Of a DNA stretch of 40,058 nt, positions 2,763 through 18,797 are shown piece after piece (position 1 is the first letter of the stretch; each line of letters starts with the position of its first letter). A model generated the notes under the pieces. The model did no database searches. It was not told the DNA's origin and saw only the letters and a list, made by a program, of their open reading frames with translations. Source of the stretch: Bacteroidota bacterium (GTDB lineage: Bacteria; Bacteroidota; Bacteroidia; Bacteroidales; UBA5342); contig QKHT01000289.1 of NCBI GenBank assembly GCA_003249935.1, forward strand, positions 1 through 40,058, given 5' to 3'. Made by a program: the position numbers and the translations under genes.

Positions 2763-5700
2763 TTACGTGTCGGCATCCATCTCATCCTCATCATCGGGCA
2801 GATTTACTGCGTTGGCATTAAACTTTTTTCGATATTCTGTTGGGGTCATATTAAACGCCTTTTTAAAACAACCTCTAAAGTATTTGGCATCATTGTACCC
2901 CACTTCGTACATTACGTCGTTTACCGAATACATGTTTTTTTGCAACAATTGCGCGGCACGCTGCAATCTAAAGTTGCGGATAAATGAATTAACGGTAAAA
3001 CCGGTAACCGCTTTCAGCTTTTTATTCAGGTTCAACAACGAAATACCACAATAATCGGCAAGCATTTCAACAGTAACGTCCGAATTGCTGATGTTTTCTT
3101 CGAGGTATTTTTTAACCCGTTTAATAAATTTTTCGTCGATACTGGTAAGTGTAACCTCTTCGGGCGTAACGTTTACATTTTTTTGAAACTTATGAATAAT
3201 TTTTGTCCGGCTTTTTAAAATTCCACTCATTATTGTTTCAAGCTCTTTTACCGAAAATGGCTTGGTTACATAAGCATCAGCTCCTACGGCATATCCCTTA
3301 ATCCGGTCTTCCTGAGCTTCTTTGGCGGTGAGTAGTATTACCGGAATATGATTTATTCTATCGTCGCGTTTAAGCCTTGAGCAAAATTCCAAACCATCCA
3401 TTCCATCCATCATGATATCGCTAACAACCAAGTCGATGGTATTTTGCAGACAAATATTAAGAGCTTCGTTGCCATCGGTGGCCAAAAATATATTGTAAAT
3501 ACTTTTAAAATTTTCTTCGAGAAAATAGAGAATATCGTTGTTATCCTCAACCAAAAGAATGGTATAGGCTTTATCGTTATCTTCAACCAAAGCACTTTCG
3601 TGAACATGTTCGACCATCGAAGAAATAGAATTATCCACAAAACCATGCTCGGTATCGAAAACCATTTCCGATTCGCTATAATCATCGGATGTAACAGGTA
3701 AAACTACTTTAAAGCTGGTTCCCTCTCCCACTTTCGATTGGTAACTTATTTCGCCGTGATGCAGTTCTACTAAACTTTTTGTAAACGACAAACCAATACC
3801 ATTGCTAAGTTCCTTCGAATTTTTTCCTTGATTGAACCTTTCGAAAATATGCTTTTCAACCTCTGGAGGTATTCCCGAACCGGTGTCGCGTACAATTATC
3901 TCAACATAGGTGCCAGCCTTTTCAACCTCTAAGGTCACATGGCCCCCGTTTGGCGTAAACTTAAAAGCATTGGAAAGCAAATTATAAATTATCCGTTCTA
4001 CAATTTCCGCATCGAACCATGCATTGAGGTTGGTTTTATCCTTTACACTAAATAAAATTTCCTTTCTGTTGGCGATTTCGTAAAAGCTATCGCCAAGCAT
4101 ACTAATATAATTGGAGATATTGCCATAGGCCACCTTGAGCTTAATTTTACCCTGTTCTACCTTTCGAAATCCAAGCAACTGATTAATAAGATTAAGTAAC
4201 ACACGTGAATTACGTTGAATATTTCGGTAATACTTTTGCCTGTCTTCTTCACTAAGTCCCGATGGATTATTGATTAGCCTGTCGGCAAATCCAATAATTA
4301 ATGTAAGCGGCGTTCTGAACTCATGAGAAATATTGGTAAAAAACTTAAACTTCATAGAATTAAGTTCTTCTACCTTTTCTTTTTCCATATAATCAAGAAT
4401 GAGTTCATTCTTTAGCGTTGCTTTAATAAGGGTGTACTTTCTAAAGAACAAAATCACAAAAATCATAACCCCAAAATATATTAAAAAAGCCCACGCCGAA
4501 CGCCAATATGGGATACCAATTTTTACCGGTAAGGCCAGTTCGTTTTTACTCCATACTCCAACGCCATTAGTGGCCCTTATCCTCAAAATATAATCGCCCG
4601 ATGGCACATTGGTGTACTTGGCAACACGGTTTACCGCATCGGTTCTGGTCCAACCATCATCGAAACCTTCGAGTTTATATTCGTATTTATTTTGAGCCGG
4701 TGCAGCAAAATGAAGTGCTGAAAACTGAAACGAAAAACTATTTTCGTCATATTTTAACACCAGTTTATCGATACAATTAATCGACTTTTCAAGCACTTTT
4801 CGACCATTGTACTTACCCGATGCCGTTAAGTCCTGATTAAACAGTGTAAAACCGGTAAGAACGACATGCATCGACGACGTATCCACAAAAATGTCATTGG
4901 AATAAAATGCATTAAACCCATTTACGCCACCAAAAACCATTTCGCCATCGTGTCGCCTTACGGCAGCCATTTCACTAAATTCCATATCCTGCAATCCATC
5001 GGCAGAACCAAAATTATGAATTGTTCCGGTTTTCTTGTTTAAACAACTTAGCCCTTGGTTGGTACTGATCCACAAATTACCCGATTCATCTTCGAGAAGA
5101 GCTTTAATTACATCATTTGGCAATCCATCTTTACTCGATATTACTTCAAACCGACCGGATTTATCGCCTTTTTTTTGTATGTATTTATTCAGTCCCCCGC
5201 CAAATGTACCTATCCACAGTGTGCTGTCTGAACCTACAAGTAATGGCAATATATAATTATGCGATAATGAATTAGAATTATTATCGTCATGCAAAAACCT
5301 ATCAAACACAATGATTTCCGAATTGTCTTTAGCCAAAATTCTGTTAAGGCCATTATCCGTGCCAATCCAAATATTTCCCAATTTATCTTCAACAATACTT
5401 CGTATAATCTTCGAACTGATACAATTATTTTTACCACTTTGTGGCAAATAGTGATGATAACCGATCAATTCTGCATTATCATTGTATTGTATCCGAAACA
5501 AACCAGCACCATATGTGCCAATCCAAAGGTTTTTTTTCGAATCAACAAAAGTACAAAACACCGCTTTAGTACCCATTATCTCGTGCAACTTATTCTCGGC
5601 AGCAGGAAGCCGTCTCAACTTTCCATCCCGATCCAGTTCAAAAATCATTTCGGCCCTTGAACCCAATACAAACAAGCTCTTTTTTGCAAATTTTAGCTCG

Positions 5701-7019
5701 GCAATAGTTTGTATATTATCGGCCCCCTCGGAGTTTGGATCTAAAACAATATTCTCAAAATTTTGGTTATAGCTATTTCCGTACTTCCCTTGCAAAAAAT
5801 TTAGGTGTCCATCTTGTGTAATCACCCAAAAATTGTGTTTACTGTCCTCAAAGAGAGAACGGATTGCGTTGCTCGAAATACTGGTAGAAATATTGGTTTT
5901 TTTGAAGTGCCTGAAATTATTTCGATTCGGATTGTACACATTAATACCACCACCAATCGTTCCGATCCAAATGAGTCCGGTCATATCACGCATTATACTA
6001 ATTGCCTTATTATTACTCAGACTATTGGAATTATTTAAATCGTATGTAAAGTGTTCAATTACTTCAAAAGTCCCGGTTTTAAAATCGGCACTGCGAGCTA
6101 CAAATACACCCTCGAAATTAATACACCATAGTTCATCTTTCACAGGTAATACCTTGCTGCATCGAAGGTCCAGAATCAATTCCGGCATTACATCACTATT
6201 CTCGTAATATGTAAAAGGTATGGCATGCACCTTGCCATTTACAATTATCAACTGACCATTTAACTCATTTATACCGGACACAACGGTTTGAAAAGTATTT
6301 GGATATCGTACGAACCGTGGTTCGGCATCATTGTTCTTTTCATCCATTAACCTGTTTAAACCATTACTTGTACCAATCCAGAAGTTGCCATTACTATCCA
6401 AAAACAGCGACATAATGCTATTGTCATACAAACTCTCGCTATTATTGTTACTGTAATACAATTCAACACGGTACTTCCCATTGGCTAATGGTACAAAACG
6501 GTTCAACCCATTTGCAGTACCCACCCAAATATTCTTGTATCGATCTTCCTTTATACAGGTAATTGTATTATCGGTAATTTTTGCTTTTACAGCGGGCTCA
6601 TTAAAAAAATTAGTAAACTTTTGAGTTCCTATATCAAACTTACTCACCCCCCTATCGGCAGTGCCAATCCATATATTGCCATCGCTATCTCCGGTAATAC
6701 AGTGTATAAGACCAGATGAAATACTGGTACTATCGCCTATGATATTGCGAAAAACGGTAAACGTATACCCATCAAAACGGTTCAATCCATCGTGACTACC
6801 AGCCCAGATAAACCCTGAGCGATCCTGATAAATAGTTCGCACATCGTTTTGGGAAAGACCATTGGAAGAGGAATAATGCTGAAAATAATTGTTTGAAAGT
6901 GCAGATACCTGTCCAATTCCATATATTAAGCCCATTGTCGCCAATGCAAAAAACCTGACATTGCACCGATACATTAAAGCCTTACATTGTAAATAGATAA
7001 AGTGTATTTTTCTAATCAT
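2763..7019 (-). CDS. Hybrid two-component system sensor/AraC-type regulator (HTCS)
   Basis: Single-protein signalling system of the kind Bacteroidota use to sense glycan fragments in the periplasm and switch on nearby degradation genes. The 1418 residues show, in order: an N-terminal hydrophobic signal or anchor; two seven-bladed reg_prop propellers with many repeats such as GNIWIGTADRG (about 45-740); a Y_Y_Y domain (KYEYKLEGFDDGW, about 760-830); a transmembrane helix (FLIYFGVMIFVILFF, about 845); HisKA with NISHEFRTPLTLI (H899); HATPase with NLLSNAFKFTPNGG, DTGSGIPP and GIGLS; a receiver with DIMMDGMDG (D1201) and a TKPF lysine; and an AraC-type HTH pair (about 1295-1400). A second ATG 15 codons in would give a cleaner signal peptide and is a real alternative. 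The gene is divergent from a GH29 gene, its likely target. Domain content is certain; the ligand is inferred to be a fucosylated glycan. Confidence 0.96.
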   Translation of the reverse strand: MIRKIHFIYLQCKALMYRCNVRFFALATMGLIYGIGQVSALSNNYFQHYSSSNGLSQNDVRTIYQDRSGFIWAGSHDGLNRFDGYTFTVFRNIIGDSTSISSGLIHCITGDSDGNIWIGTADRGVSKFDIGTQKFTNFFNEPAVKAKITDNTITCIKEDRYKNIWVGTANGLNRFVPLANGKYRVELYYSNNNSESLYDNSIMSLFLDSNGNFWIGTSNGLNRLMDEKNNDAEPRFVRYPNTFQTVVSGINELNGQLIIVNGKVHAIPFTYYENSDVMPELILDLRCSKVLPVKDELWCINFEGVFVARSADFKTGTFEVIEHFTYDLNNSNSLSNNKAISIMRDMTGLIWIGTIGGGINVYNPNRNNFRHFKKTNISTSISSNAIRSLFEDSKHNFWVITQDGHLNFLQGKYGNSYNQNFENIVLDPNSEGADNIQTIAELKFAKKSLFVLGSRAEMIFELDRDGKLRRLPAAENKLHEIMGTKAVFCTFVDSKKNLWIGTYGAGLFRIQYNDNAELIGYHHYLPQSGKNNCISSKIIRSIVEDKLGNIWIGTDNGLNRILAKDNSEIIVFDRFLHDDNNSNSLSHNYILPLLVGSDSTLWIGTFGGGLNKYIQKKGDKSGRFEVISSKDGLPNDVIKALLEDESGNLWISTNQGLSCLNKKTGTIHNFGSADGLQDMEFSEMAAVRRHDGEMVFGGVNGFNAFYSNDIFVDTSSMHVVLTGFTLFNQDLTASGKYNGRKVLEKSINCIDKLVLKYDENSFSFQFSALHFAAPAQNKYEYKLEGFDDGWTRTDAVNRVAKYTNVPSGDYILRIRATNGVGVWSKNELALPVKIGIPYWRSAWAFLIYFGVMIFVILFFRKYTLIKATLKNELILDYMEKEKVEELNSMKFKFFTNISHEFRTPLTLIIGFADRLINNPSGLSEEDRQKYYRNIQRNSRVLLNLINQLLGFRKVEQGKIKLKVAYGNISNYISMLGDSFYEIANRKEILFSVKDKTNLNAWFDAEIVERIIYNLLSNAFKFTPNGGHVTLEVEKAGTYVEIIVRDTGSGIPPEVEKHIFERFNQGKNSKELSNGIGLSFTKSLVELHHGEISYQSKVGEGTSFKVVLPVTSDDYSESEMVFDTEHGFVDNSISSMVEHVHESALVEDNDKAYTILLVEDNNDILYFLEENFKSIYNIFLATDGNEALNICLQNTIDLVVSDIMMDGMDGLEFCSRLKRDDRINHIPVILLTAKEAQEDRIKGYAVGADAYVTKPFSVKELETIMSGILKSRTKIIHKFQKNVNVTPEEVTLTSIDEKFIKRVKKYLEENISNSDVTVEMLADYCGISLLNLNKKLKAVTGFTVNSFIRNFRLQRAAQLLQKNMYSVNDVMYEVGYNDAKYFRGCFKKAFNMTPTEYRKKFNANAVNLPDDEDEMDADT

Positions 7020-7126: not shown

Positions 7127-7503
7127 GATGACTGAATTTGAACAAAACATAAAAAAATTCAAAAACACGAACATCTTATTTTAAAATTAATTATGAACTA
7201 AATTTTTACATTATACCTCTATCTTTTTCAACTATTCATGCAATTGTAATCTTTTAATTAAACCTGCAGATTAAAAATACCACCCAACAAACTCACAAAT
7301 TTTCACTCAATGCCTTTGGTTTTTTTTCACAATCATTTTACCCCCTCTTATTTGACAGACATCAACCCTGTAAAAATGCGAATTGGTTAATAAATTTGTC
7401 TGCGTAAAAAAGCTCTCCCGACAGTACAACAGGCAATACATATAGGTAAGAGTTCTTTTAGGTAAAACGATAATATTATTAAAATAACTAAATATTGAAA
7501 AGG
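7127..7503. other. Divergent regulatory region between HTCS and GH29 genes
   Basis: This very AT-rich stretch has no open frame of coding character. It must hold the fucosidase promoter and probably the binding site of the AraC-type domain of the regulator. A plus-strand -7 box TAAATTTG lies at 7391-7398, about 106 bases before the fucosidase start, with only a partial -33 (TG at 7369-7370). I could not identify a clear direct-repeat operator by eye. Confidence 0.4.
7391..7398 (+). promoter_or_regulatory. Possible -7 box for the GH29 gene
   Basis: TAAATTTG fits TAnnTTTG on the plus strand upstream of the fucosidase. The -33 half is weak, consistent with, but not proof of, an activator-dependent promoter. 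Confidence 0.35.
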
Positions 7504-9039
7504 ATGATTTTTCTTAAGAAAGCGATCTTAGCTTCAGTGGTCATTGGATTTTGTTTAAACGCCAATGCTGGCAAAACGAAAAAATCGGGCGCAGATTTTA
7601 AACCATACGAAGAAAATTGGGAGTCGTTGCAAAGATACGAAACACCGGAATGGTTCAGAGATGCAAAATTTGGCATTTTTATTCACTGGGGCGTGTACAG
7701 TGTTCCAGCTTTTGGCTCGGAATGGTATCCACGTCACATGTACATGCCGGATGGTCGCATAGACCAAAATACAGGTCTAATAAAAGATTCGGTACCAACT
7801 GCCGAGTATTTGCACCATATTAAAACCTACGGGCCTTTAGAAAAATTTGGTTATAAAGATTTTATTCCAATGTTTAAGGCAGAAAAATTTGATGCCAACA
7901 AATGGATGGATGTCATTGTAAAATCGGGTGCTAAATATGTGGTTCCTGTGGGTGAACATCACGACGGATTTGCAATGTACAACTCGCACGTTACGGAATG
8001 GAATTCGGTTAAAATGGGACCGCACCGCGATATTGCAGGAGAATTAGCCGCAGCAGCGAAAAAACGTCATATTAAATTCGGTCTGTCTTCGCATTTGGCA
8101 TTTAACTGGAACTACTATAATCGAAAAAAAGGTTGGGATACAATGGATCCAAAATATTTTGGATTATACTCCAGAGCACACGAACCTAACGGCAAAGTCG
8201 ATTCAACGTTCCTCGCCTATTGGTGGGATCGCACAAAGGACATGATAGATTCGTACAAACCAGATATTTTATGGTTCGACTTTTACATGGACAGAGCCGA
8301 ATTTGCCAACTACCACAAGATAATGGCAGCATACTACTATAATCAGGGCTTAGCCTGGAATAAACAAGTATGTCTTCAAACTAAGAATATGGGCTACCCA
8401 TCGTTCCCTAAAGGCACCCAAACTTTGGATATAGAACGTGGCAAAATGTCGGACATATACGATGAATCCTGGCAAACAGATACATCTATTGGCGAAAACT
8501 CCTGGTGCTACGTAACCAATTGGAAATCGAAAACATCAAAATCGCTGATACAGGATTTAATTGACATTGTGAGCAAAAACGGCAACCTCTTGCTAAATAT
8601 GGGACCAAAAGCCGATGGAACTATTCCCGACGATCAGCAGCAAATTCTTTTTGAAATGGGGCAATGGCTTAAAATAAATGGTGAAGCCATTTACAACACC
8701 CGCCCTTATAAGATATTTGGCGAGGGCCCGACAAAAGTAGCTACCGGCCATCATAGCGAAGGAAAAAACAAAGAGATGACCAGCAACGATTTTCGCTTTA
8801 CCGCTAATGGCAAAAATATTTATGTTATAGCGATGGGTTTAGGCAGTTCGAACGAATACAAAATAGAGTCGTTTAAACTCAATAATACGTACATGGGGTC
8901 TCAGAAAATAAAAAAAGCAATATTGCTTAATGGCAATAAAAAAATTGCCTTTACTCAGAAAGCCGATGGACTCTATTTGAATATCAACAACACAAAAGCA
9001 TTACAAGCACCATTTGCCATTAAACTCGTAATGAATTAA
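7504..9039 (+). CDS. GH29 alpha-L-fucosidase, secreted
   Basis: Retaining exo-alpha-L-fucosidase exported by a signal peptide (hydrophobic stretch ending at ANA, residue about 22). The 511-residue protein has full GH29 features: KFGIFIHWGVYS with the conserved His, VGEHHDGF with both substrate-binding His residues, DILWFD with D259 as likely nucleophile, and NGNLLLNMGP near the end of the barrel, then a C-terminal beta-sandwich. ATG at 7504 is preferred to an in-frame TTG at 7495, which would add three residues (KRM context); both give a signal peptide. The gene stands alone between the divergent regulator and a strong terminator, so it is probably under direct control of that regulator. Of the three GH29 proteins here this one has the most classical active site. 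Confidence 0.93.
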   Translation: MIFLKKAILASVVIGFCLNANAGKTKKSGADFKPYEENWESLQRYETPEWFRDAKFGIFIHWGVYSVPAFGSEWYPRHMYMPDGRIDQNTGLIKDSVPTAEYLHHIKTYGPLEKFGYKDFIPMFKAEKFDANKWMDVIVKSGAKYVVPVGEHHDGFAMYNSHVTEWNSVKMGPHRDIAGELAAAAKKRHIKFGLSSHLAFNWNYYNRKKGWDTMDPKYFGLYSRAHEPNGKVDSTFLAYWWDRTKDMIDSYKPDILWFDFYMDRAEFANYHKIMAAYYYNQGLAWNKQVCLQTKNMGYPSFPKGTQTLDIERGKMSDIYDESWQTDTSIGENSWCYVTNWKSKTSKSLIQDLIDIVSKNGNLLLNMGPKADGTIPDDQQQILFEMGQWLKINGEAIYNTRPYKIFGEGPTKVATGHHSEGKNKEMTSNDFRFTANGKNIYVIAMGLGSSNEYKIESFKLNNTYMGSQKIKKAILLNGNKKIAFTQKADGLYLNINNTKALQAPFAIKLVMN

Positions 9040-9080
9040 ACTACACAATTTCGAGGAATAAACCTTTAGACTAAATTTCA

Positions 9081-9128
9081 ACGCAGGTATCATTGTTCAG
9101 GAACAATGGTCCCTGCGTTTTTATTTTA
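9081..9128 (+). terminator. Strong intrinsic terminator after the GH29 gene
   Basis: A long hairpin starts 42 bases after the stop: ACGCAGG pairs with CCTGCGT and CATTGTTC pairs with GAACAATG, separated by a small internal loop, followed by a T-rich tail. It isolates the fucosidase from the next operon. Confidence 0.9.
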
Positions 9129-9267: not shown

Positions 9268-9525
9268 ATGAAATTAAAATCGAATATAGCCATTAGCGAC
9301 AATGGATTTCTGTTTAATCCCGAAACAGGCGATTCGTACACGGTTAACCCCGTAGCTCGCGACATTATCAGGCTCATGCAAAACAACATGACCTTCGACG
9401 AGATAAAAATGATTATAATGGGTAAATATGAAGTATCGGACCTTGTACTCGACCGGGACTACCACGACCTGATTCGGATGCTTGAGATTTTCAATTTAAC
9501 AGTTGAGCCACATGAGCATGAGTAA
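9268..9525 (+). CDS. PqqD-like small protein (RiPP recognition element fold)
   Basis: The 85-residue cytosolic protein matches the PqqD pattern: a short beta-rich start, then NPETGDSYTVNPVARDIIRLM (read as two motifs, residues about 16-36), a TFDEIKMIIMGKYEV helix, and a final D-x-x-x-L-I-R-M-L helix. PqqD-fold proteins usually bind a peptide substrate and present it to a modifying enzyme. It is the first gene of a seven-gene run and its last codons overlap the start of the ATP-grasp gene, implying coupled translation and a shared job. No precursor peptide gene is visible beside it. It ends in alternating His and Glu, with a terminal Glu. The fold call is moderately sure; its partner is inferred. 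Confidence 0.7.
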   Translation: MKLKSNIAISDNGFLFNPETGDSYTVNPVARDIIRLMQNNMTFDEIKMIIMGKYEVSDLVLDRDYHDLIRMLEIFNLTVEPHEHE

Positions 9526-10564
9526 AATAAAACTGACAATTGGTGTTACCGGACTAAATAACACCGACAACCCCGGCCCCGGAGTTCCGGTAATTCGCGG
9601 AATAAGAGAATCTGATTTTTTTGAATGCCGTATAATAGGACTGGCCTACGAAAATATGGAACCTGGCATATACATGCCCGATCTGGTTGATAAAACATAT
9701 CAGATTCCATATCCTTCATCGGGGAGTGATGCCTTACTCGAACGGATTTTGGAAATAAATGAGATAGAACATCTCGATCTCATTATTCCGAATTTCGATG
9801 CCGAACTACAAACTTTTATGATGAGCGAAAAACATCTGAACCAAGCAGGCATCAAACTATTTTTACCAACAACCGAACAGTTTGAAGAACGCCATAAAAT
9901 GGTTTTAGATCAATATGGTAAAAAATACGGCGTTCTTGTTCCTAAAAGCATGTCGTTGACTACACTCAACGATGTGGCAGGGATTCGCGACGAATTCGAG
10001 TATCCGGTATTGGTAAAAGGGAAGTATTACGATGCTTATGTCGCTTACAATTCCGAGCAGGTAATTAGTCATTACAACCGTATTTCGGCCAAATGGGGGT
10101 TACCCGTAATTATTCAGGAATTTATTCGGGGTACTGAAGTTAATGTCATTGCCCTTGGCGACGGCCATGGCAACACCATGGCGGCAGTGCCCATGCGCAA
10201 ACAATTTATTACCGATAAGGGTAAAGCGTGGAGTGGCATAACCATTGCCGACGAAAAGATGCTTGAGATAACACGTTCGCTGATAAAACAAACAAAATGG
10301 CGGGGCGGCATGGAGCTCGAGATGATAAAAACAACAGCCGGAAAATACTATCTCATCGAAATAAATCCACGCATTCCGGCATGGGTCTATTTGGCGGTTG
10401 GTGCGGGCCAAAATATCCCCGAAGCACTCATTAAGCTGGCCCTTGGATTAGAAATTAAACCACTCGAAACCTATAAGGTTGGCACCATGTTTATACGCTA
10501 CTCTTACGATATTATCGGCGACATATCGCAATTCGAGAAACTCTCAATTTACGGTGAATTATAA
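9518..10564 (+). CDS. ATP-grasp ligase (carbamoyl-phosphate-synthase-like)
   Basis: ATP-grasp enzymes join a carboxylate to an amine or thiol through an acyl-phosphate. The 348-residue protein has an N-terminal Rossmann-like part (TIGVTGLNN), a central lysine strand (YPVLVKGKYYDAYVAY, about residue 165), the hinge region IIQEFIRGTEVNV, and the metal-binding EINPRIPAW near residue 285. It resembles the CPSase large-subunit-like branch rather than D-Ala-D-Ala ligase. Starts at 9503 (TTG), 9512 and 9518 are possible; 9518 gives ATGAGTAA overlapping the PqqD stop by 8 bases and is chosen. The overlap suggests that the PqqD-like protein delivers or is its substrate. The substrate itself is unknown. 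Confidence 0.8.
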   Translation: MSKIKLTIGVTGLNNTDNPGPGVPVIRGIRESDFFECRIIGLAYENMEPGIYMPDLVDKTYQIPYPSSGSDALLERILEINEIEHLDLIIPNFDAELQTFMMSEKHLNQAGIKLFLPTTEQFEERHKMVLDQYGKKYGVLVPKSMSLTTLNDVAGIRDEFEYPVLVKGKYYDAYVAYNSEQVISHYNRISAKWGLPVIIQEFIRGTEVNVIALGDGHGNTMAAVPMRKQFITDKGKAWSGITIADEKMLEITRSLIKQTKWRGGMELEMIKTTAGKYYLIEINPRIPAWVYLAVGAGQNIPEALIKLALGLEIKPLETYKVGTMFIRYSYDIIGDISQFEKLSIYGEL

Positions 10565-10586
10565 CTTAAAATCGATGCATACTATT

Positions 10587-11390
10587 ATGAAATCAATCCT
10601 TGCAACAATAGCGATTCTAACGCTTTCGATGGTCACTCAAGCTCAGCTTACGCTCGAAAAACACTACGATTACTCGGCCAATACAGTAAAAATAAACAAT
10701 ACCGATTATAAGCTTTACATTATGGATGTACCAAACAGTCAATGCCGGATATACAATCCCGACCATTCACTGTATAAAACCATCAATTTGCCTGTGCCTG
10801 CAAACAGTTATTTGTACGACATTAAATTTGTATCGCAAAACATGTTTAATTCCGACACAAAAATTGAGCTTTTATACACCTATTATGCTTATATCACAAC
10901 AGATACTGCCGGAAACGGCTATTACGAATATAATACAAAAATAATTAACGAATCGGGAACCGTTTTGGTATCGGCCCCAAAGGTGGTGTATTCTTACATT
11001 AAAGAACATAGTGCCGGTGTTTACAAGTTGTACCTTTATTCGACCGATTATTCATCGTGGCCCTATAAAGTGGGAACCGACATTTACAACATTCCGGGTA
11101 CAGTGCAAACCAGTGTCATAACCACCTCTGCCGATAATGCCATAAAACCGGCATTCCCCAATCCGGCCACCTCATTGGTTACTTTGCCTTATGCATTGAA
11201 CCACGGTTCAACCAAAGGTATAATTAAAATTTTGGACACGAAAGGCAATGAAGTGGCACAATACACTGTGGATAATGCCTTTAACAATCTTATAATACCG
11301 GTAGAAACAATGCCCAAGGGCACATATTTTTATTACCTCGAAACCGAAAATCATTTAAGAAATACTGTTCAAAAATTTATTATTAACTAA
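10587..11390 (+). CDS. Secreted protein with type IX sorting tail
   Basis: The 267-residue protein starts with a clear signal peptide (MKSILATIAILTLSMVTQAQ, cleaved after about residue 19). The middle (about 20-180) is rich in Tyr, Thr and beta-type patterns and is not recognised. The last ~80 residues form a Por secretion tail: AFPNPATSLVTL, a GIIKILDTKGNEV strand and KGTYFYYLE, then a final IIN. It would therefore be sent across the outer membrane by T9SS. The ATG at 10587 is used; an ATG at 10575 would add four residues, and frames reaching further upstream overlap the ATP-grasp gene. It sits between two enzyme genes of the same run, which makes it the exported member of that system. Confidence 0.8.
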   Translation: MKSILATIAILTLSMVTQAQLTLEKHYDYSANTVKINNTDYKLYIMDVPNSQCRIYNPDHSLYKTINLPVPANSYLYDIKFVSQNMFNSDTKIELLYTYYAYITTDTAGNGYYEYNTKIINESGTVLVSAPKVVYSYIKEHSAGVYKLYLYSTDYSSWPYKVGTDIYNIPGTVQTSVITTSADNAIKPAFPNPATSLVTLPYALNHGSTKGIIKILDTKGNEVAQYTVDNAFNNLIIPVETMPKGTYFYYLETENHLRNTVQKFIIN

Positions 11391-11407
11391 TTTAACGTCT
11401 ATTAATT

Positions 11408-12754
11408 ATGAGCAAACAAATATATGAACGCCCCATTATTAACCGCATAAACGCAGGGGTGCCGGACAAATTTGGCATGAGAAGCCGTATTAAAACGATG
11501 AACAACATAGATGGTGTTGCAATAAATACCATTACCGAAGAATTTGGATCACCGGTTTTTGTGGTTTCGGAACGAACCATTCGCGATCGCTATCACGAAG
11601 CATACCGGGCGTTCAGCACCAGGTATCCATCGGTAAAATTTGCATGGTCGTACAAAACCAACTACCTCGATGCAGTATGCCGTGTTTACCATAGCGAAGG
11701 TTCGTGGGCCGAAGTAGTATCGGGTTTCGAATACGAGAAAGCATTACAAAACGGGGTCGAAGGTAAAAACATACTTTTTAATGGCCCCGACAAACAACCA
11801 CACGAAATTAAAAGGGCCATCGAAAACGGGTCGTACCTGCATATCGACCATTTCGATGAGCTATATCTTGTTATAGAAACCGCCCGAAACCTCAACAAAA
11901 AAGCACTTGTCGCAATTAGAGTAAACATGGACACCGGCATTTACCCCATGTGGGACCGTTTTGGGTTCAACTACGAAAATGGGGAAGCATGGAGTGCCAT
12001 TTGTCGTATTATGTTACAGGAAAATCTCGAATTTGTTGGTCTGCACACGCATATCGGAACCTATATCATGTCGCCGGGAGCTTATGGCGTAGCGGCACAA
12101 AAATTGGCAGCCTTAGCCATTAAAACCAAACAAAAATACAACCACAGTATAAAATACATTGACATGGGCGGTGGCTTTGCTTCGAAAAACACATTAAAAG
12201 GGGCCTACCTTAGCGGAGCCGATACTTGCCCTACATTCGACCAATATGCCGAAGCCATTACTTCGGCTTTAATTACCAGCGACCTCGACCCGGCCAATTT
12301 GCCAACCCTGATTCTCGAAACCGGGCGGGCACTCATTGACGATGCAGGCTATCTGATTGGCCGCGTAAAAGCAAACAAACGCCTAAGCGATGGACGCAAA
12401 GCGATTGTGGTGGATTTTGGCATCAATAATTTGTTTACATCATTTTGGTACAACCATAATGTATTGCCGGTTCAGGTTCATACCCAAACCACCGAAGCCA
12501 CTACCATTTACGGCCCGTTGTGCATGAACATTGATATTATTCGCGATGTGGTTCAGTTTCCACCTCTCGAAACCGATGACCTTGTTGTGGTTGAACGCGT
12601 TGGCGCATACAATATGACACAATGGTTGCAGTTTATAACCTATCGGCCAAATATTGTTATGATTGATTCTGAAGGACATACTCATCTTATTCGCAAACGC
12701 GAAACCATCGAAACGTTTAATGCACAGGAAGTTGTTCCGGAAAAGTACAAATAA
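11408..12754 (+). CDS. Fold-III PLP-dependent decarboxylase, diaminopimelate-decarboxylase-like
   Basis: Alanine-racemase-fold enzyme of the LysA/ornithine decarboxylase superfamily; it would decarboxylate an amino acid in the cytosol. In the 448 residues I see the PLP lysine in AWSYKTNY (K83), EVVSGFEYEKAL for cofactor contacts, GLHTHIGTY, the glycine loop IDMGGGF, ILETGRALIDDAG (Thr where LysA usually has Pro), the second-subunit Cys in YGPLCMNID (C372) and a substrate-loop Tyr in GAYNMTQW. All catalytic parts are present, so it should be active. The unusual N-terminal 35 residues and the operon partners argue against plain lysine biosynthesis; it may act on a product of the ATP-grasp enzyme or supply its substrate. 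The start is 17 bases after the previous stop. Confidence 0.82.
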   Translation: MSKQIYERPIINRINAGVPDKFGMRSRIKTMNNIDGVAINTITEEFGSPVFVVSERTIRDRYHEAYRAFSTRYPSVKFAWSYKTNYLDAVCRVYHSEGSWAEVVSGFEYEKALQNGVEGKNILFNGPDKQPHEIKRAIENGSYLHIDHFDELYLVIETARNLNKKALVAIRVNMDTGIYPMWDRFGFNYENGEAWSAICRIMLQENLEFVGLHTHIGTYIMSPGAYGVAAQKLAALAIKTKQKYNHSIKYIDMGGGFASKNTLKGAYLSGADTCPTFDQYAEAITSALITSDLDPANLPTLILETGRALIDDAGYLIGRVKANKRLSDGRKAIVVDFGINNLFTSFWYNHNVLPVQVHTQTTEATTIYGPLCMNIDIIRDVVQFPPLETDDLVVVERVGAYNMTQWLQFITYRPNIVMIDSEGHTHLIRKRETIETFNAQEVVPEKYK

Positions 12755-12769
12755 CAGCAAATACATTCA

Positions 12770-14992
12770 ATGAAATTCATCGGGGTTCGCACCTTATGGG
12801 CTAATTTTACTGAAGCAGGACTCAACAGTTATGCTCAGGTTTTCTTTTCGAAAAACAAGGTTCTGGCCATTTTACTGCTTGTTGTTAGTTTTTTCGACTA
12901 TACAGCCGGATGTGCAGGCCTGCTGGCAGTAGTGGTTTCAATTTTGTTTGCCAATATGCTGGGATTAAGTACTGTAACCACACAGAGCGGTCAATACGGC
13001 TTTAACAACCTACTTATGGGATTGGCTTTGGGATTTACCTTTGAACCATCCATTCCGTTATTCGCAACGGTGGTCATAGCATCGGTATTCACCACTTTTG
13101 TAACCATTGCGATGCAGGGATGGCTGACAAAATACGGATTGCCATACCTCAGTTTGCCGTTTATTGTGGGAACCTGGATTTCGCTTATCGCAGCCTCGCG
13201 ATTTACTGTTTTGGGATTGAGTGCCAGAGATATATACAACGAAAACGCCTTGTATGCACTTGGAGGGAAATGGTTGCACGAGATGTTTTACAATTTCGAA
13301 ATGCTATTTCCCCAGATAGTAACCATCTATTTTAAAGCATTAGGTGCCATATTCTTTCAATTTAATGTGGTTGCCGGTGTACTAATAGCTATCGGATTGC
13401 TTATTTACTCGCGAATGGCGTTTGTATTGTCGATTCTCGGTTATTTTGTAGCCCTTGCTTTTTATAAAGTAATGGGGATTGACCTGCCAGGCATTTCGTA
13501 CACTTACATCGGGTTTAACTATATACTCACCTCCATTGCTTTAGGTGGCTACTACTTGGTACCGGGCAGAGGATCGTTTGCTGTTTCGTTTGCGATGCTA
13601 CCTATTGTAGGCTTAATTACGCTGGCATCCGAATCGATATTTGCAGTATTTCAGCTTTCGGTTTATTCATTGCCGTTTAATGTAACGGTTTTACTCTTTT
13701 TATACATTCTGAAATATCGGACAAAGGAAACATTCGGTATTACAGAAGTACCTTACCAGCACTTTAGTCCCGAAAGAAATTTTTACTTTAACTATTTAAA
13801 TCGCGATGAAAAAAAGAAAACAGGTTTTTTTAATCTGAGCCTCCCTTTTTACGGTGAATGGACGGTGAGTCAGGGCCACGACGGGGAATTTACCCACAAG
13901 AACGAATGGAAACACGCATGGGATTTTGAGATTTATCAGGATGGCAAACAGTTTGCCAACGACGGAAATGTGGTTACCGACTATTTTTGCTATGGCAAAC
14001 CGGTTTTAGCATCGGCCGACGGTATTATAGTGGAAGTGGTTGATGGTATTGCCGATAATGCCATTGGAGAAATGAATATACTTCGAAACTGGGGAAACAG
14101 CATAGTCATTTACCATCTACCCGGTGTTTATACACAACTCAGCCATCTCAAAAACGGTTCAATAAAAGTAAAAAAGGGCGATTCGGTAATTAAGGGTCAA
14201 CCTCTGGCAACATTGGGAAATTCGGGCCGTTCGCCCTATCCTCACCTTCACTTTCAGGTTCAAGCCTTTCAGTACGTTGGTTCAAAAACCATAAAATACC
14301 CCATTGGCAACTATCTTACCAACGACCGGGGTAAGTTTGATATGAAGTTTTTTGACTTACCACAATCGGGCGAAAAGTTAATAAATCCTACCACTTCGCC
14401 TTTGCTTGTATCGGCCTTTACGTTTGTACCCGGCCAAAGTTACCGGATAAAAGTTAGTGGCGAGGGGAGCATTCCGGTCGATTACAAAAAACTATTAGGA
14501 CTACAAAACATTGAAATTCTAACAGACAGCTACAACAATTCTTGTTTTTTCGACACAAACACAGGTGAAAAAGCTTATTTTGGCAACGATGGTTCATTTC
14601 ATACTTTTCTTAATTTCGATGGTCGATCCGGAAGTTTTTTAAAGTTATGGTCGCTGGTATTGAAAAAGGTTTACATGGGGTATTATCAACAGTTAGAATA
14701 TACCGACTCCATTCCGGTTCATTTTATGTTTCGCGGGCCTTTAAAAATACTGCACGATATTATAGCACCGTTGTATTCTTTTATTCGCACCACCTACTTT
14801 ATCCGTTATGTCAATTTGAATGAGGACTTTACAGGAGGAAATGCCACAATTGAAGGCGAAATATTCAATAATGTGTTTAACGTTAAGCGAAGTGTATGCA
14901 GGTTCAATATACTTTTAAACGAAAACGGAATCCAACAAATTGTCTTAGTTTATAGTAAGTTTATACTCAATTTTGAATGCAAAAGATCTTAA
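12770..14992 (+). CDS. Urea-transporter-like membrane domain fused to M23 metallopeptidase
   Basis: A 740-residue fusion. Residues about 25-310 are a polytopic membrane domain with urea transporter signatures, seen twice as internal repeats: QYGFNNLLMGLALG, LPFIVGTWISL, and IGFNYILTSIALGGYY. Residues about 360-510 form an M23/LytM peptidase: HAWDFE provides His and Asp zinc ligands and SPYPHLHFQ the second His pair, with GNSIVIYH and LGNSGRS between them. Residues 510-740 are an unrecognised beta-rich region. The membrane part should be a channel in the inner membrane with the peptidase outside or attached to it. The gene follows the decarboxylase by 15 bases and its end overlaps the next start by 16. 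Urea itself may not be the substrate: no urease genes are present, and the channel may carry another small amide or amine. Confidence 0.85.
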   Translation: MKFIGVRTLWANFTEAGLNSYAQVFFSKNKVLAILLLVVSFFDYTAGCAGLLAVVVSILFANMLGLSTVTTQSGQYGFNNLLMGLALGFTFEPSIPLFATVVIASVFTTFVTIAMQGWLTKYGLPYLSLPFIVGTWISLIAASRFTVLGLSARDIYNENALYALGGKWLHEMFYNFEMLFPQIVTIYFKALGAIFFQFNVVAGVLIAIGLLIYSRMAFVLSILGYFVALAFYKVMGIDLPGISYTYIGFNYILTSIALGGYYLVPGRGSFAVSFAMLPIVGLITLASESIFAVFQLSVYSLPFNVTVLLFLYILKYRTKETFGITEVPYQHFSPERNFYFNYLNRDEKKKTGFFNLSLPFYGEWTVSQGHDGEFTHKNEWKHAWDFEIYQDGKQFANDGNVVTDYFCYGKPVLASADGIIVEVVDGIADNAIGEMNILRNWGNSIVIYHLPGVYTQLSHLKNGSIKVKKGDSVIKGQPLATLGNSGRSPYPHLHFQVQAFQYVGSKTIKYPIGNYLTNDRGKFDMKFFDLPQSGEKLINPTTSPLLVSAFTFVPGQSYRIKVSGEGSIPVDYKKLLGLQNIEILTDSYNNSCFFDTNTGEKAYFGNDGSFHTFLNFDGRSGSFLKLWSLVLKKVYMGYYQQLEYTDSIPVHFMFRGPLKILHDIIAPLYSFIRTTYFIRYVNLNEDFTGGNATIEGEIFNNVFNVKRSVCRFNILLNENGIQQIVLVYSKFILNFECKRS

Positions 14993-16362
14993 TATTACTC
15001 ATGCTATTTGCACTATCGGCTAAAGCCGCCAGGCCGGTAAAATACAACTACACCGCCGATACATCGAGTTATAACATGTATTTAACGGGCCAATGGCATA
15101 GCATTATAAAACTGGCGAAGCATGACAAAGCGATCAATTTCTATTATTACAATCTTCGGGTTGCAATAGCCTATATGAACCTTGGCGATTTTAGCAAAGC
15201 CACCCAATGGTTTCGCCGGGCCGAAGAACTTTCAGCACATCAGGTTGAAACAGCAGGTTATCATTATCGTTCGGCCATCGCATCGGGCGAATTGTTCGAT
15301 GCACAACGATTGGCCGCACGCTTTCCGCAATTCGGGTTCAACAAAGCAAAGCCTCTAACCTATCTGGCAATCGATGCGGGGTTTAGTACAAATTCGGATT
15401 ACAACAATAATCTGAAGCGTAGCATTATCGCCAGTGGAACCGACGAATCGCAACAATTACTCACTAAGAACATGGATTTTAAAAATTTTTATGCCGGACA
15501 AAGGCTGAGCCCAACCATTTCGTTCAACGAAGCTTTCGGAACACTTAATTTGAACAAAACTCAGTGCTATACCTATTCTACGGGTGGCGACACAAACATT
15601 TCGGTTAATACCACCCAATGGCAAGCGTATTTCAACACACAAATATCATTAAACGACCGGTTCAGTTTTACACCTGCCATATCGGTTCTTGGATTAAAAA
15701 TCGGTTCGATACAAAAAACGTCCAATACCAAAACCATCATCGACAGCACCTATGTGGTTCAACCACCCAAAAAGCCATATTGGCAAATAAAATCGCGCAA
15801 TGTAACAACAAACTCGTACAACAGTTTCGAAAACACAGCCACACAATATATAGCATCGGTACGCGCCGACTATCGTTTGCCACATACAAATATGTGGATA
15901 TGCGGGTCAAAAAGCAACTTTAACACCCAAAAACAAACCCAATACGGGGCAGGCATCCGACAATATATTGGATCAAAAATATATATCGAGGGTGCTCTGG
16001 TTCATCTTAAAAACAACAAAAATCAATTTGTTAACGAAAGCAATGCCTGGATTTACAACGCCAGCACAGGTTTTCGGCTGAACCGCGTGAGCGCAGATTT
16101 GAGCTTTACCACGGGCGACATGCGCAACTACGCATCTAATAACGGCCTTGTTCTTTATAATAGCCTCGATATGGCAAAACAAATGATTGGCGGCAATATA
16201 AAATATCATATCATTCAAAACAAATTACTATTTTCGGCCTTTTACAACAGCAGCGTTATGGAAGGGTATGATTATAATTATATGAATGCTGTGTACAACA
16301 ATAAGAATACTTTTAATTACACAATGCATACAATTGCGGGAGGTATAACATGGATTTTTTAA
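14977..16362 (+). CDS. TPR plus outer-membrane beta-barrel protein
   Basis: The 461-residue protein has a signal peptide (MQKILILLMLFALSAKA), then two or three TPR-like helical pairs (FYYYNLRVAIAYMNLGDFSKA, residues about 50-110, given here as one repeat), then about 330 residues of alternating amphipathic strands rich in Asn, Thr and Tyr. It ends in a Phe after ITWI, the usual C-terminal signature of Bacteroidota outer-membrane barrels. It overlaps the transporter/peptidase gene by 16 bases and the next TPR gene by 13, so the three are likely translated together and may form an envelope-spanning unit. No specific barrel family is recognised; it could be a channel or a structural barrel. Confidence 0.72.
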   Translation: MQKILILLMLFALSAKAARPVKYNYTADTSSYNMYLTGQWHSIIKLAKHDKAINFYYYNLRVAIAYMNLGDFSKATQWFRRAEELSAHQVETAGYHYRSAIASGELFDAQRLAARFPQFGFNKAKPLTYLAIDAGFSTNSDYNNNLKRSIIASGTDESQQLLTKNMDFKNFYAGQRLSPTISFNEAFGTLNLNKTQCYTYSTGGDTNISVNTTQWQAYFNTQISLNDRFSFTPAISVLGLKIGSIQKTSNTKTIIDSTYVVQPPKKPYWQIKSRNVTTNSYNSFENTATQYIASVRADYRLPHTNMWICGSKSNFNTQKQTQYGAGIRQYIGSKIYIEGALVHLKNNKNQFVNESNAWIYNASTGFRLNRVSADLSFTTGDMRNYASNNGLVLYNSLDMAKQMIGGNIKYHIIQNKLLFSAFYNSSVMEGYDYNYMNAVYNNKNTFNYTMHTIAGGITWIF

Positions 16363-16967
16363 AGCATTTGATTATTGTAGCAACTTCTTTTTGCTATATG
16401 GCCATTCAGGCACAACCGAGCGACAAAACCATTGCTGCGTTTTCAAAAAGTTTTCAGTTAGAATCTGAAAAAAAATATGCTCAGGCCGGGTCGGCTCTTA
16501 CCGAAGTTTATAATAAAGATACGTATGAAATAAATTTGCGATTGGGTTGGTTGTTTTATAAGGCGGGCATGTATCCTGAATCGGAATCGTACTACCAACG
16601 TGCTGTTGAATTAATGCCTTATGCGGCGGAACCAAAATTAGGATTGGTTCAACCCAAAGCTGCCATGAACAAATGGGCCGAAGTTGAGGCACTTTACAAA
16701 AAAATATTAGATGTCATGCCCGACAACACTTATGTGCTATACAATTTATCGTTGATATACTACAACAAAGGCGATTACAGCAAAGCCAATCCACTATTGC
16801 AAAAGGTTATAAATCTGTATCCAACCGACTACGACAGCATGTTGCTGTTTGGCTGGAACAATTTGAAATCGGGCAAATATCGCGAGGCAAAACTCATGTT
16901 TCAGAAGGTTTTGTTGCTTTATCCGTCTAACGAATCGGCTACCGAAGGTCTTAAACTAATAAAATAA
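16350..16967 (+). CDS. Periplasmic TPR protein
   Basis: The 205-residue protein begins with a signal peptide (about 22 residues, ending AIQAQ) and consists of four to five tetratricopeptide repeats: AQAGSALTEVYNK, LGWLFYKAGMYPESE, YNLSLIYYNKGDYSKANP and GWNNLKSGKYREAKL. TPR proteins act as scaffolds. It is the last gene of the run, overlapping the barrel gene by 13 bases and ending 19 bases before a perfect terminator hairpin. Probably an assembly partner of the barrel or of the transporter/peptidase protein. The partner is inferred from gene order only. Confidence 0.8.
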   Translation: MDFLKHLIIVATSFCYMAIQAQPSDKTIAAFSKSFQLESEKKYAQAGSALTEVYNKDTYEINLRLGWLFYKAGMYPESESYYQRAVELMPYAAEPKLGLVQPKAAMNKWAEVEALYKKILDVMPDNTYVLYNLSLIYYNKGDYSKANPLLQKVINLYPTDYDSMLLFGWNNLKSGKYREAKLMFQKVLLLYPSNESATEGLKLIK

Positions 16968-16986
16968 AATTTAGGCAATATAATCC

Positions 16987-17018
16987 AACAATGCCGGGTT
17001 TCCCCACACGGCATTGTT
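16987..17018. terminator. Shared hairpin between convergent operons
   Basis: A perfect 10-base stem (AACAATGCCG and CGGCATTGTT) with a 12-base loop lies between the plus-strand TPR gene and the minus-strand NifX-like gene. It is positioned to end transcription from both sides. T-tracts are short on each strand. Confidence 0.75.
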
Positions 17019-17031
17019 AGATTATTTAAAA

Positions 17032-17400
17032 TTAATGCGAGCACACGTGCCCATCATCGTGGGTATGATCGCAAGTTTCTCCACTATCGGCCACTAAACC
17101 ACTGGCATAACTGTTTATAAGCTGTAATACATCGCCACTGCACCCCCGCACAACTTCAATACCGGCTGCGGTTACCTTATTTACGGCTCCCTGCCCCATG
17201 TTACCGGCCAAAAGAACAGAAACACCCATCTCTTTTAATTCGGTAGCAACATTGCTTTTGCATCCGCATCCTTTGGGCGCAGTAAAATGTGTAGTGGACA
17301 ATACCGCTCGGTTATCCGATAAAGTAACGATTGTGTAATAATCGCAATGACCAAAATGGTTATCAACCATACCATTACGTGTTGGAACTGCTATTTTCAT
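17032..17400 (-). CDS. NifB/NifX-family (dinitrogenase FeMo-cofactor domain) protein
   Basis: The 122-residue protein has the small RNase-H-like fold of the Nitro_FeMo-Co family: MKIAVPTRNGMVDNHFGHCDYY at the start (residues 1-22 in two motifs), PKGCGCKSNVA in the middle, LLAGNMGQGAVN and GIEVVRGCSGDV near the end. Such proteins bind iron-sulfur or iron-molybdenum clusters during their transport. The C-terminal tail is rich in His and Cys (DHTHDDGHVCSH), a likely extra metal site. Last gene of the DUF134 operon. No nitrogenase genes are in the window, so a nitrogenase role is not implied; similar stand-alone proteins occur in many anaerobes. Confidence 0.85.
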   Translation of the reverse strand: MKIAVPTRNGMVDNHFGHCDYYTIVTLSDNRAVLSTTHFTAPKGCGCKSNVATELKEMGVSVLLAGNMGQGAVNKVTAAGIEVVRGCSGDVLQLINSYASGLVADSGETCDHTHDDGHVCSH

Positions 17401-17421
17401 AATTTATTCTTTTTATATCGT

Positions 17422-17886
17422 TTATACTTCGAACCGTTGCAGTGAATGGTGGTTCAACTTCCGGTCCTTTACGACCAAAGTGGTGGTTGGCACACACGAT
17501 TTGGCGTTAAAAACCATATCGTGCCCCAAACAAAGCCCCATCACAATATTCATATCGGTATTCTTTTCGGCAAGATAAAAAGCCTGTCCGGCCGGATTGC
17601 ACGAAACGCCCTTATACCCCGGCAAAATTTCGTCATTAGGCATGCGACCCAATTTACAATTCGCCCGACTAACCACAAAACCTTCATCCTCAAGCATTTT
17701 AACCAACGCTTCGCCTTGCCTCTCGAAACTGATACAATTGGCAACACCAATGTGGGTAAAACCAGCACCTTTGGCAAAATTTACAATTTCTGCCACACGA
17801 TCGTCTTTCGGATTTAACGTATCTTCGACAATCTTCATTATCGTACGATCTTTTTCGTTGTAAAGCACCCCAAAATTTGACTCCAT
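17422..17886 (-). CDS. DUF1847-like cysteine-containing protein
   Basis: The 154-residue protein resembles DUF1847 metal-binding proteins of anaerobic bacteria and archaea. Visible motifs are GFTHIGVANCISF, VVSRANCKLG, GVSCNPAGQA, MGLCLGHDM and a final TTTLVVKDRKLNH, with conserved Cys residues in each of the first four. As I recall the family, members start with an additional Cys-rich stretch; that part is absent here, and the protein begins directly with ESNFGVLYNEKD. The gene lies between two NifX-like genes, 21 and 5 bases from its neighbours, so it likely works with them in handling a metal cluster. The function of the family is unknown. Confidence 0.72.
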   Translation of the reverse strand: MESNFGVLYNEKDRTIMKIVEDTLNPKDDRVAEIVNFAKGAGFTHIGVANCISFERQGEALVKMLEDEGFVVSRANCKLGRMPNDEILPGYKGVSCNPAGQAFYLAEKNTDMNIVMGLCLGHDMVFNAKSCVPTTTLVVKDRKLNHHSLQRFEV

Positions 17887-17891
17887 CGTTA

Positions 17892-18218
17892 TTATCTTTT
17901 TGCTAATATTCTGTCTGTTAACTCTTTTGGCCGAACCAGATGATCGGCAAGCAACACAATGCGTATGTCTCGTTCCATAGCCATTAGCTGCACTTTATAT
18001 CCAAGTTCAAACGCGATAAATGTATCTGCTTTTTTTAAATCGACTAAATACTCCACCACCTGAGGTCCGGCATCGGTATCCAAACGGCAATAGGGATTTT
18101 CGACATACTCCACACGGTTCAAACCCTTATTTACAATAGCAAACCAAGGACTTCGGGCAAATTTTTTACTCAAAACACAAGATTCATTTCCAACCGAAAC
18201 AGGCAATACAACAATCAT
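17892..18218 (-). CDS. Second NifX-like FeMo-cofactor-domain protein
   Basis: The 108-residue protein has the same small fold as the gene at 17032 but is divergent: it begins MIVVLPVSVGNESCVLSKKFARS, continues with FAIVNKGLNRVEYVENPY, and has KKADTFIAFELGYKVQ in place of the usual glycine-rich loop. The ATG at 18218 overlaps the DUF134 stop as ATGA, which decides the start; an upstream GTG at 18224 is less likely. It forms a pair with the other NifX-like gene in one operon. Confidence 0.72.
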   Translation of the reverse strand: MIVVLPVSVGNESCVLSKKFARSPWFAIVNKGLNRVEYVENPYCRLDTDAGPQVVEYLVDLKKADTFIAFELGYKVQLMAMERDIRIVLLADHLVRPKELTDRILAKR

Positions 18219-18625
18219 ACACACCCCTCCATTTTAACTATTTCGGTTGAACCACATAAAACGCATTCATTGGTAACGTTACCTTTTGGATTATTGAACC
18301 GAACCTTACATCCTGAACAAAAAAACCAGTTACAATTTAAAAATCCATTACCACTTTCAATTTTCACTTCCACGCCTTCAACCAATGCCTTCGCAATAGT
18401 TGCTCTTGCCCGTTGATAAATACGGGTAACCGATGATCTCGATCGCTGCATCAACCGGGCCGCTTCTTCCTGCGACAATCCCTCATAATCCAACAGTCTT
18501 ATTACCTCTAACTCTTCGAGATACAATAAAAGTGGTTCGCATTCGCCATTACAATAGCCTACTGGTGTAAACCCCTTAATTCGGGGTGGAATCTGAACGC
18601 TGTTTGCGTGTCGCGGTCGTGCCAT
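18215..18625 (-). CDS. DUF134 helix-turn-helix protein with zinc-ribbon-like tail
   Basis: The 136-residue protein fits the DUF134 family: MARPRHANSVQIPPRIKGF at the start, then a sigma-70-region-4-like helix-turn-helix (LEVIRLLDYEGLSQEEAARL and SRSSVTRIYQRAR, about residues 38-78). The C-terminal part has C-x-x-C pairs (CSGCKVRF and CVLCGS), a likely metal-binding ribbon. Probably a DNA-binding regulator of its own operon that reads metal or redox state. The start at 18625 is set by the promoter: an upstream in-frame codon at 18685 lies before the -7 box. It is the first gene of the operon with two NifX-like genes and DUF1847. Confidence 0.85.
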   Translation of the reverse strand: MARPRHANSVQIPPRIKGFTPVGYCNGECEPLLLYLEELEVIRLLDYEGLSQEEAARLMQRSRSSVTRIYQRARATIAKALVEGVEVKIESGNGFLNCNWFFCSGCKVRFNNPKGNVTNECVLCGSTEIVKMEGCV

Positions 18626-18642
18626 ATTGCAAAATTTCGATA

Positions 18643-18674
18643 CAAATATAATGCACTTATGTTCATATCTGCAA
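18643..18674 (-). promoter_or_regulatory. Promoter of the DUF134 operon
   Basis: On the minus strand TTG (18672-18674) is followed after 21 bases by TATATTTG (18643-18650). The start codon lies only 17 bases further, giving a very short leader. Confidence 0.65.
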
Positions 18675-18797
18675 GAAAAATCCAAATAATTTCAAACTAT
18701 TTGTTATAAAAACAATTAGTTGCAAGAATTAAATCACATTTAAAGAAAATTATCAGATAAATTCAGTCAACAGTTTCATTAATTATTAAACAATTAC

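Follow-up and report, generated by a model that had tools for sequence, protein, structure and literature searches.

Discrete RiPP recognition elements (RREs) of the lasso/LPP kind, among them TbiB1, TfuB1/FusB1 and LppB, belong to pathways for ribosomally synthesized and post-translationally modified peptides (RiPPs), where they hold a [Y/F]xxPx[I/L/V] motif in the leader of a short precursor. In LppB (PMC13381572), N33 fixes the kink at the leader Pro, D70 forms a hydrogen bond with the Tyr of the leader, and F74 touches the motif. Here we describe a gene cluster in a 40,058-nucleotide stretch of Bacteroidota DNA (contig QKHT01000289.1, the window) in which gene A, for a lasso-type RRE, is followed by genes for an ATP-grasp ligase (B), a decarboxylase dependent on pyridoxal phosphate (PLP; D), a urea-transporter-fold protein fused to an M23 peptidase (E), and two exported proteins (F and G); a seventh gene, C, is optional. 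A is close in sequence to TbiB1 and TfuB1, its Asn and Asp contact residues are spaced as in LppB, and the ligand motif is the same, but that motif sits on the 448-residue enzyme D instead of a short precursor, and the core lacks a lasso protease or cyclase.

Two further groups of described systems bear on the enzymes. In butirosin biosynthesis, BtrJ is the ATP-grasp enzyme that loads the carrier, and the BtrJ/BtrI/BtrK system shares with this cluster an ATP-grasp ligase and a decarboxylase of the same class acting on a bound amino acid; here, in contrast, an RRE is found instead, and no acyl carrier protein (ACP) gene was noticed in the core, where no dedicated ACP search was made. FigC, SbnH, AcsE, MccE, and BtrK form one clade with the diaminopimelate (DAP) and D-ornithine decarboxylases and have citryl amino acids, a peptide-nucleotide, or carrier-bound Glu as substrates (PMC7857480).

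No description of this cluster was found in the open-access literature, judged by titles, abstract starts, and selected passages, in agreement with a preliminary description, made from the sequence alone, that knew of no system of this composition. Neither “Bacteroid” nor “decarboxylase” occurs in PMC12710340 and PMC7470986, and PMC8939145, which covers graspetides of Bacteroidetes, contains neither “decarboxylase” nor “urea”. The newness applies to the system as a whole; each part comes from a known family. We regard the system as real and widespread and offer a pathway built on the docking of A to D as a working hypothesis. RRE-based genome mining for RiPPs assumes binding of a precursor peptide, whereas here a lasso-type RRE most likely binds the tail of an enzyme; if right, this would give the RRE groove a second role, in recruiting enzymes, open to a simple test, and would point to an undescribed metabolite and a dedicated urea-channel/M23 route of export or uptake in environmental Bacteroidota.

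A leader-like tail on the decarboxylase

Judged by its sequence, the N-terminal tail of D carries the YxxP leader motif bound by lasso-type RREs, in the form [Y/F]E[R/K]PxI...KFG, parts of which hardly vary: P9 and K21 are unchanged in all 99 proteins of a D alignment. The tail is predicted to be disordered. In the AlphaFold2 model the predicted local distance difference test score (pLDDT) stays below 50 over residues 1-26, against 82-98 in the ten-residue blocks that start at residue 31, the closest structural neighbors align only from residues 29-38, and the top sequence-profile matches begin at residues 28-34. When low-confidence residues are kept, structural rows for D-ornithine/lysine decarboxylases begin at D residue 11-12, which we take to be a disordered stretch placed there by chance, given where the top rows begin.

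The motif [Y/F][E/D]xPx[I/L/V] is present in all 137 distinct full-length D orthologs, 102 of them matched by the regular expression YxxPx[ILVM] and 35, with FERP, recognized by eye. A looser form, with Y (184), F (59), or L (1) as the first residue, covers 244 of the 245 D N-termini that could be read in a larger set; the sole N-terminus outside it, at locus L330, reads FEVP. The loose expression demands a Lys near +15, and the invariance of K21 is therefore drawn from the 99-protein alignment only. Among other open reading frames (ORFs), the Y-form motif lies within the first 40 residues in 24 of 1746, and in 30 LysA control loci of the order it turned up a single time, in a fortuitous upstream match. 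D proteins from across the phylum still have the tail at 47% identity.

Covariation of the RRE with the tail

A scores 31.7 bits against PF05402 (cut-off 23.4), which places it in the PqqD/RRE family, and its nearest solved relatives are lasso-peptide RREs: a profile search of the PDB returned TbiB1 (5v1u, E 1.4e-11), TfuB1 (6jx3, E 1.4e-8), and PbaB1 (9x90, E 4.3e-4). N27, D64, and position 68 of A are spaced as N33, D70, and F74 of LppB, with 37 residues from N27 to position 64 as from N33 to D70, which gives A the conserved leader-groove residues of an RRE. All 179 rows without a gap at position 27 have Asn there (two rows are gapped), and position 68 is Phe in 176 of 181, with Leu in the window's own A.

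Position 64 varies, and it varies with the tail. The comparison drew on 213 A/D pairs, 181 of them distinct, and left out six loci without a D N-terminus, one without the motif (L330), and 31 without an A on the same strand. D or N occupies position 64 in 129 of the 181 pairs, all of them among the 131 with a Tyr tail (D 108, N 21, H 2), whereas none of the 50 pairs with a Phe or Leu tail has D or N there (Y 34, S 12, A 2, H 1, F 1). This single column separates the tail classes with a balanced accuracy of 0.992, against 0.803 for the next-best column of A, and its pairing with D residue 6 stands alone among 1804 column pairs, with a corrected score of 54.8; the second-highest pair (16.1) joins the same A column to a different tail position. 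In the reverse test, which used well-filled columns (B 180 rows, D 137, E 97), D residue 6 was the best predictor of the A64 class among 1516 columns in B, D, and E, at 0.986 versus 0.905 for the next. The covariation and this first rank together make it very probable that the RRE holds the tail of the enzyme and not a free precursor, so that docking of A on D, in the fashion of an RRE on a leader, can be proposed with high confidence. A had earlier been described as a peptide-binding PqqD fold; the kinship with RREs stands, but the “peptide” is most likely the N-terminal tail of D, which had escaped that description.

A weaker PqqD-like match (21.9 bits, below the cut-off) lies elsewhere in the window's own genome, at 571-1731 of locus L002 (contig C286). 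It falls at the N-terminus of a 386-aa protein without a Pfam match at 0.001 that reads as HPr-kinase-related and adjoins a nucleotidyltransferase-like gene, in an unrelated kind of cluster.

Conservation of the six-gene unit

Anchored on D, a search across the phylum found the gene in 34 of 395 genomes; B precedes and E follows it in 30 of 30 loci, the window's own included, and A was detected in 27 of these, the other three having a short flank that stops near the A position. Within the order, a D ortholog was detected in 153 of 393 genomes. Anchored on E, a search of 198 genomes of the order gave matches in 88, four of them to the M23 part alone, and the order A-B-D-E-F-G was found again among the 60 loci retrieved. 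A second collection consisted of the best 80 E loci on named contigs, from Mariniphaga, Prolixibacter, Marinifilum, Draconibacterium, Cyclobacteriaceae, and many metagenome-assembled genomes. Pooled, with some genomes present in both, the two collections comprise 140 Bacteroidota loci, of which 95, with 86 distinct E proteins, carry all six genes in order; among the 45 incomplete loci, 29 are truncated by the locus end wherever they lack a gene, unlike the remaining 16. In five genomes examined in which E stands without A/B/D nearby, D is present on another stretch, and in three further genomes searched beside them it lies inside the cluster (eight of eight with D overall). Since the same order recurs in diverged genomes, the run is more than a chance arrangement, and the proposal that these genes form a conserved joint unit, which would have been weakened had they rarely been found together, is supported by both searches. 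At two loci the open frame of D is unusually long, 1187 aa in L268 (G595:C52) and 837 aa in L279 (G659:C28), and these may be natural fusions.

Predicted activities of the conserved proteins

The nearest solved relative of D is the N-citrylornithine decarboxylase 7kh2 (Z 46.8, root-mean-square deviation [rmsd] 2.1, 399 residues aligned). Lys83, His213, a Gly triplet, Glu304, Arg307, Cys372, and Tyr401 are invariant in the 99 aligned proteins, and we take their roles, beginning with Lys83 as the PLP lysine, to be those of the decarboxylase family. A CMNID loop gives D the Cys-Met pair of 7kh2 where DAP decarboxylase has Cys-Glu; with this loop in place of the Glu-containing one and an NCBIfam score of 224.1 bits against a cut-off of 297.9, D does not classify as LysA, nor, by the FslC model (215 bits, cut-off 500), as an N-citrylornithine decarboxylase. 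D thus shares its fold, the Cys-Met loop, and a conjugate-type subfamily with FigC/FslC, SbnH, AcsE, and MccE but differs from them in falling below the FslC cut-off and in having a leader-like tail, and the synthetase of siderophore formation independent of nonribosomal peptide synthetases (NIS synthetase, IucA/IucC) was found in none of 14 cluster-bearing genomes searched. As these relatives use conjugates, D probably acts, by analogy, on a conjugate produced by B. Solved ATP-grasp enzymes are only distant relatives of B, the nearest being 2pn1 (E 5e-11), and the NCBIfam models nearest to B, below their cut-offs, are carbamoyl-phosphate-synthase-like.

The first domain of E belongs to the urea transporters (UT) by both profile (PF03253, E 6.6e-54) and fold (Z 37.8 to 9j22 over residues 4-346, rmsd 2.4, 312 residues aligned), in a model with a pLDDT of 89 whose M23 part reaches Z scores of up to 15.2. 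In that part H376, D385, H459, H492, and H494 are invariant in 34 of 34 sequences and H382 is conserved in only 24; these His and Asp residues would include the metal ligands. The C-terminal domain (window 14402-14989) is also well predicted in the model and was barely covered by the VIA-align comparison. E differs from described urea transporters, UT and Yut, in scoring 131.5 bits against a cut-off of 274.6 for the NCBIfam Yut equivalog, in its fusion to M23 and a further domain, and in its genomic setting: urease alpha (PF00449), expected of a urea utilization operon, was found in 0 of 14 cluster-bearing genomes searched, which makes plain use of urea unlikely.

F and G look like periplasmic and outer-membrane parts by their TPR content and sequence pattern. 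F had been described as an outer-membrane barrel. Its sequence pattern and C-terminal aromatic residue agree with this, but Pfam gives only weak TPR matches and none to a barrel, and in a profile search of the PDB nearly all of the 60 matches listed, of 87, were TPR proteins or designed TPR fusions; the barrel is therefore best called putative, on a protein that also carries TPRs.

A working model and its alternatives

We posit that A grips the flexible, leader-like tail of D with the groove in which lasso-type RREs take up YxxP leaders, and would thereby join D with the ATP-grasp ligase B. B would make a conjugated amino acid, amide- or acyl-linked, which D would decarboxylate as FigC, SbnH, MccE, and BtrK do their own conjugates. 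For the small product, the urea-transporter-fold channel of E could then be the way across the inner membrane; the M23 domain of E would engage peptidoglycan, while F (as a barrel) and G (with its TPRs) would complete the path through the periplasm and outer membrane. We put the probability of this entire chain somewhat below one half, at about 0.45. The conserved gene unit, the tail, the RRE kinship of A, its covariation with D, and the intact catalytic residues are the parts that sequence comparison supports; the linking of D to B by A, the substrate, the direction of transport, and the roles of F and G are what we infer from them.

Several observations weigh against the model. A core gene is absent despite available sequence in 16 of the 140 E loci: F alone in two, G alone in two (apparently one genome), and A/B/D in 12. 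The Glu of the second “GEVMFQ” motif, in an alignment to the Desulfovibrio vulgaris UT, is Ala in E, so the selectivity of the channel may differ from urea, and F is poorly conserved, with a mean column identity of 25%. Concerning the docking itself, two Tyr-tail pairs have His at A64, and columns with no reason to be in contact still predict the A64 class at up to 0.905, presumably through shared ancestry. A FastTree phylogeny of B gives 10 changes of the tail residue and nine of the A64 class but only three contrasts on well-supported branches, which leaves a sign test without power; in 191 of 200 independent pairings two contrasts agree, one shows no difference, and none is contrary, and another, likewise underpowered, set of independent pairs has five changes each and three supported contrasts that mostly all agree.

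The best-placed alternative accepts the docking and changes what follows, with B acting on the tail of D itself: A would present the tail, B would load an amino or other acid onto Lys21, and D would bring its own substrate to its active site, as on a carrier arm. K21 is invariant in a segment for which AlphaFold2 gives no fold, and it lies 15 residues past the motif Tyr, about where the LppA leader ends if the numbering there (Tyr -16; PMC13381572) counts from the core; BtrK, moreover, decarboxylates carrier-held Glu (PMC7857480). A release enzyme of the carrier type is not evident, however, and K21 might be a mere contact residue, and we consider this reading possible but unlikely. Its fuller version, with D as its own precursor and carrier, B loading Lys21, the tethered group decarboxylated, and the product leaving through the urea-channel/M23 fusion, is a shade more doubtful; if true, it would amount to leader-guided chemistry on an enzyme, the logic of a carrier protein without a carrier protein.

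More remote is a conventional RiPP pathway, of the graspetide type or another, whose separate precursor has been overlooked; the tail of D would then be a second ligand or a competitor. A lasso-type RRE does stand beside an ATP-grasp ligase, a pairing that occurs in RiPP clusters, with ATP-grasp serving as a RiPP marker in PMC12710340, and graspetide ATP-grasp loci whose precursors change fast are known from Bacteroidetes (PMC8939145). Yet a search for small ORFs (18-120 aa) with [YF][EDQ][RKST]P.[ILV] within 25 residues of the first Met found only four, scattered over 141 loci, and no recurrent one near the cluster; A64 covaries with the tail of D; and genes for a lasso cyclase, a protease, or a radical SAM enzyme are absent from the core. 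A lasso B2 protease or asparagine-synthetase-like cyclase was likewise absent among the window genes by Pfam, a search confined to the window. We judge such a pathway improbable, the ORF search speaking only to precursors with this motif.

A rhizoferrin-type siderophore or metallophore pathway, in which D would decarboxylate an N-acyl amino acid, is similarly improbable. It would suit the closeness of D to N-citrylornithine decarboxylase, and in 26 of the 76 loci whose sequence extends far enough, a same-strand gene for an AraC-type regulator, H, is present no more than 4.5 kb upstream, the N-terminal half of its product looking HMA-like (metal-binding) by eye, where Pfam gives a helix-turn-helix match alone in the two members scanned. 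Against it stand the lack of IucA/IucC in the genomes searched, a core without a TonB receptor, and a UT channel that would be unusual for a charged chelator. The least probable alternative, a urea or polyamine recycling operon in which E would transport urea and the decarboxylase would yield a diamine or a compound like agmatine, fits the fold of E and the arginine/ornithine/DAP decarboxylase fold class of D but not the missing urease alpha, and it leaves A and B unexplained.

Layout of the locus

All seven genes lie on the + strand of the window (Table 1). A/B, E/F, and F/G overlap, the remaining gaps are about 10-22 bases, and the overlaps make a single transcript plausible. The close-packed, same-strand run of the preliminary description is thus retained, with small corrections of start codons; for B, ATG at 9512 is likelier than TTG at 9503. 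Its domain assignments (PqqD, ATP-grasp, Por_Secre_tail, decarboxylase, UT with Peptidase_M23, and TPR) agree with Pfam, and the two flanking hairpins it reported are real by their folding energies. A simple terminator scan, with a different loop limit and T-run rule, omits both full hairpins and reports a shorter stem within the downstream one.

Table 1. Features of the cluster and their positions in the window
Feature	Position	Strand	Description
Hairpin and U tract upstream of the run	9080..9119	+	At the end of the fucosidase gene; fold -22.1 kcal/mol, z -6.65
Gene A	9268..9525	+	Discrete PqqD-like RRE, 85 aa; PF05402 over cut-off
Codon of A Asn27	9346..9348	+	Equivalent of LppB N33 by alignment/spacing
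Codon of A Asp64	9457..9459	+	Equivalent of LppB D70 by alignment and spacing
Gene B	9512..10564	+	Predicted ATP-grasp ligase, about 350 aa
Gene C	10575..11390 (about)	+	Optional exported protein, T9SS C-terminal sorting domain (Por_Secre_tail)
Gene D	11408..12754	+	Alanine-racemase-fold PLP decarboxylase, 448 aa; Orn/DAP/Arg decarboxylase Pfam match
Leader-like tail of D, residues 1-26	11408..11485	+	YERPII...DKFG
Gene E	12770..14992	+	Urea-transporter fold (4-346), M23 peptidase (about 352-529), uncharacterized C-terminal domain (about 545-740)
Gene F	14977..16362	+	Exported; N-terminal TPR, probable outer-membrane barrel (putative)
Gene G	16350..16967	+	Exported TPR protein, 205 aa; TPR_2 E 1e-19; export read from N-terminus
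Downstream hairpin	16980..17025	.	Between convergent ends of G and next operon; 16980-17030 folds at -20.0 kcal/mol on +, -25.8 on -

Optional genes and neighbors

The product of C has a sorting domain of the type IX secretion system (T9SS; PF18962, E 1.7e-9) and is T9SS cargo by this mark. Its family stands beside the cluster in only 11 of 61 and 14 of 80 loci of the two collections, variously before A, between B and D, or after G, and copies also occur away from the cluster (23 of 149 genomes). We therefore reject C as a core part; the T9SS-exported protein that had been counted as a component is optional only.

Other genes inserted between core members (acyltransferase, IF-2B-like, aminotransferase, histidine kinase, and others) occur at one or two loci each and, with three of them scanned by Pfam, gave no clue to the substrate of the pathway; L074 and L086 have histidine kinase and aminotransferase genes between D and E, the aminotransferase of L086 being among those scanned. 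An example of H, at 10898-11500 of L044, encodes an AraC-type regulator upstream of A with a Cys-containing N-terminal domain. GcpE downstream and cytochrome bd upstream of the cluster (one gene of each scanned, with similar ones at other loci) were considered as pathway parts and set aside, as they look like regional synteny.

Upstream in the window, an alpha-L-fucosidase gene (7495-9039, +) adjoins the run, and a large hybrid two-component sensor/AraC gene (2763-7019, -) was identified by reading only; the two are an ordinary glycan-use pairing. Downstream, a convergent operon (17032-18685) encodes two Nitro_FeMo-Co proteins, the second just under the Pfam cut-off, together with DUF1847 and a DUF134 regulator-like protein.

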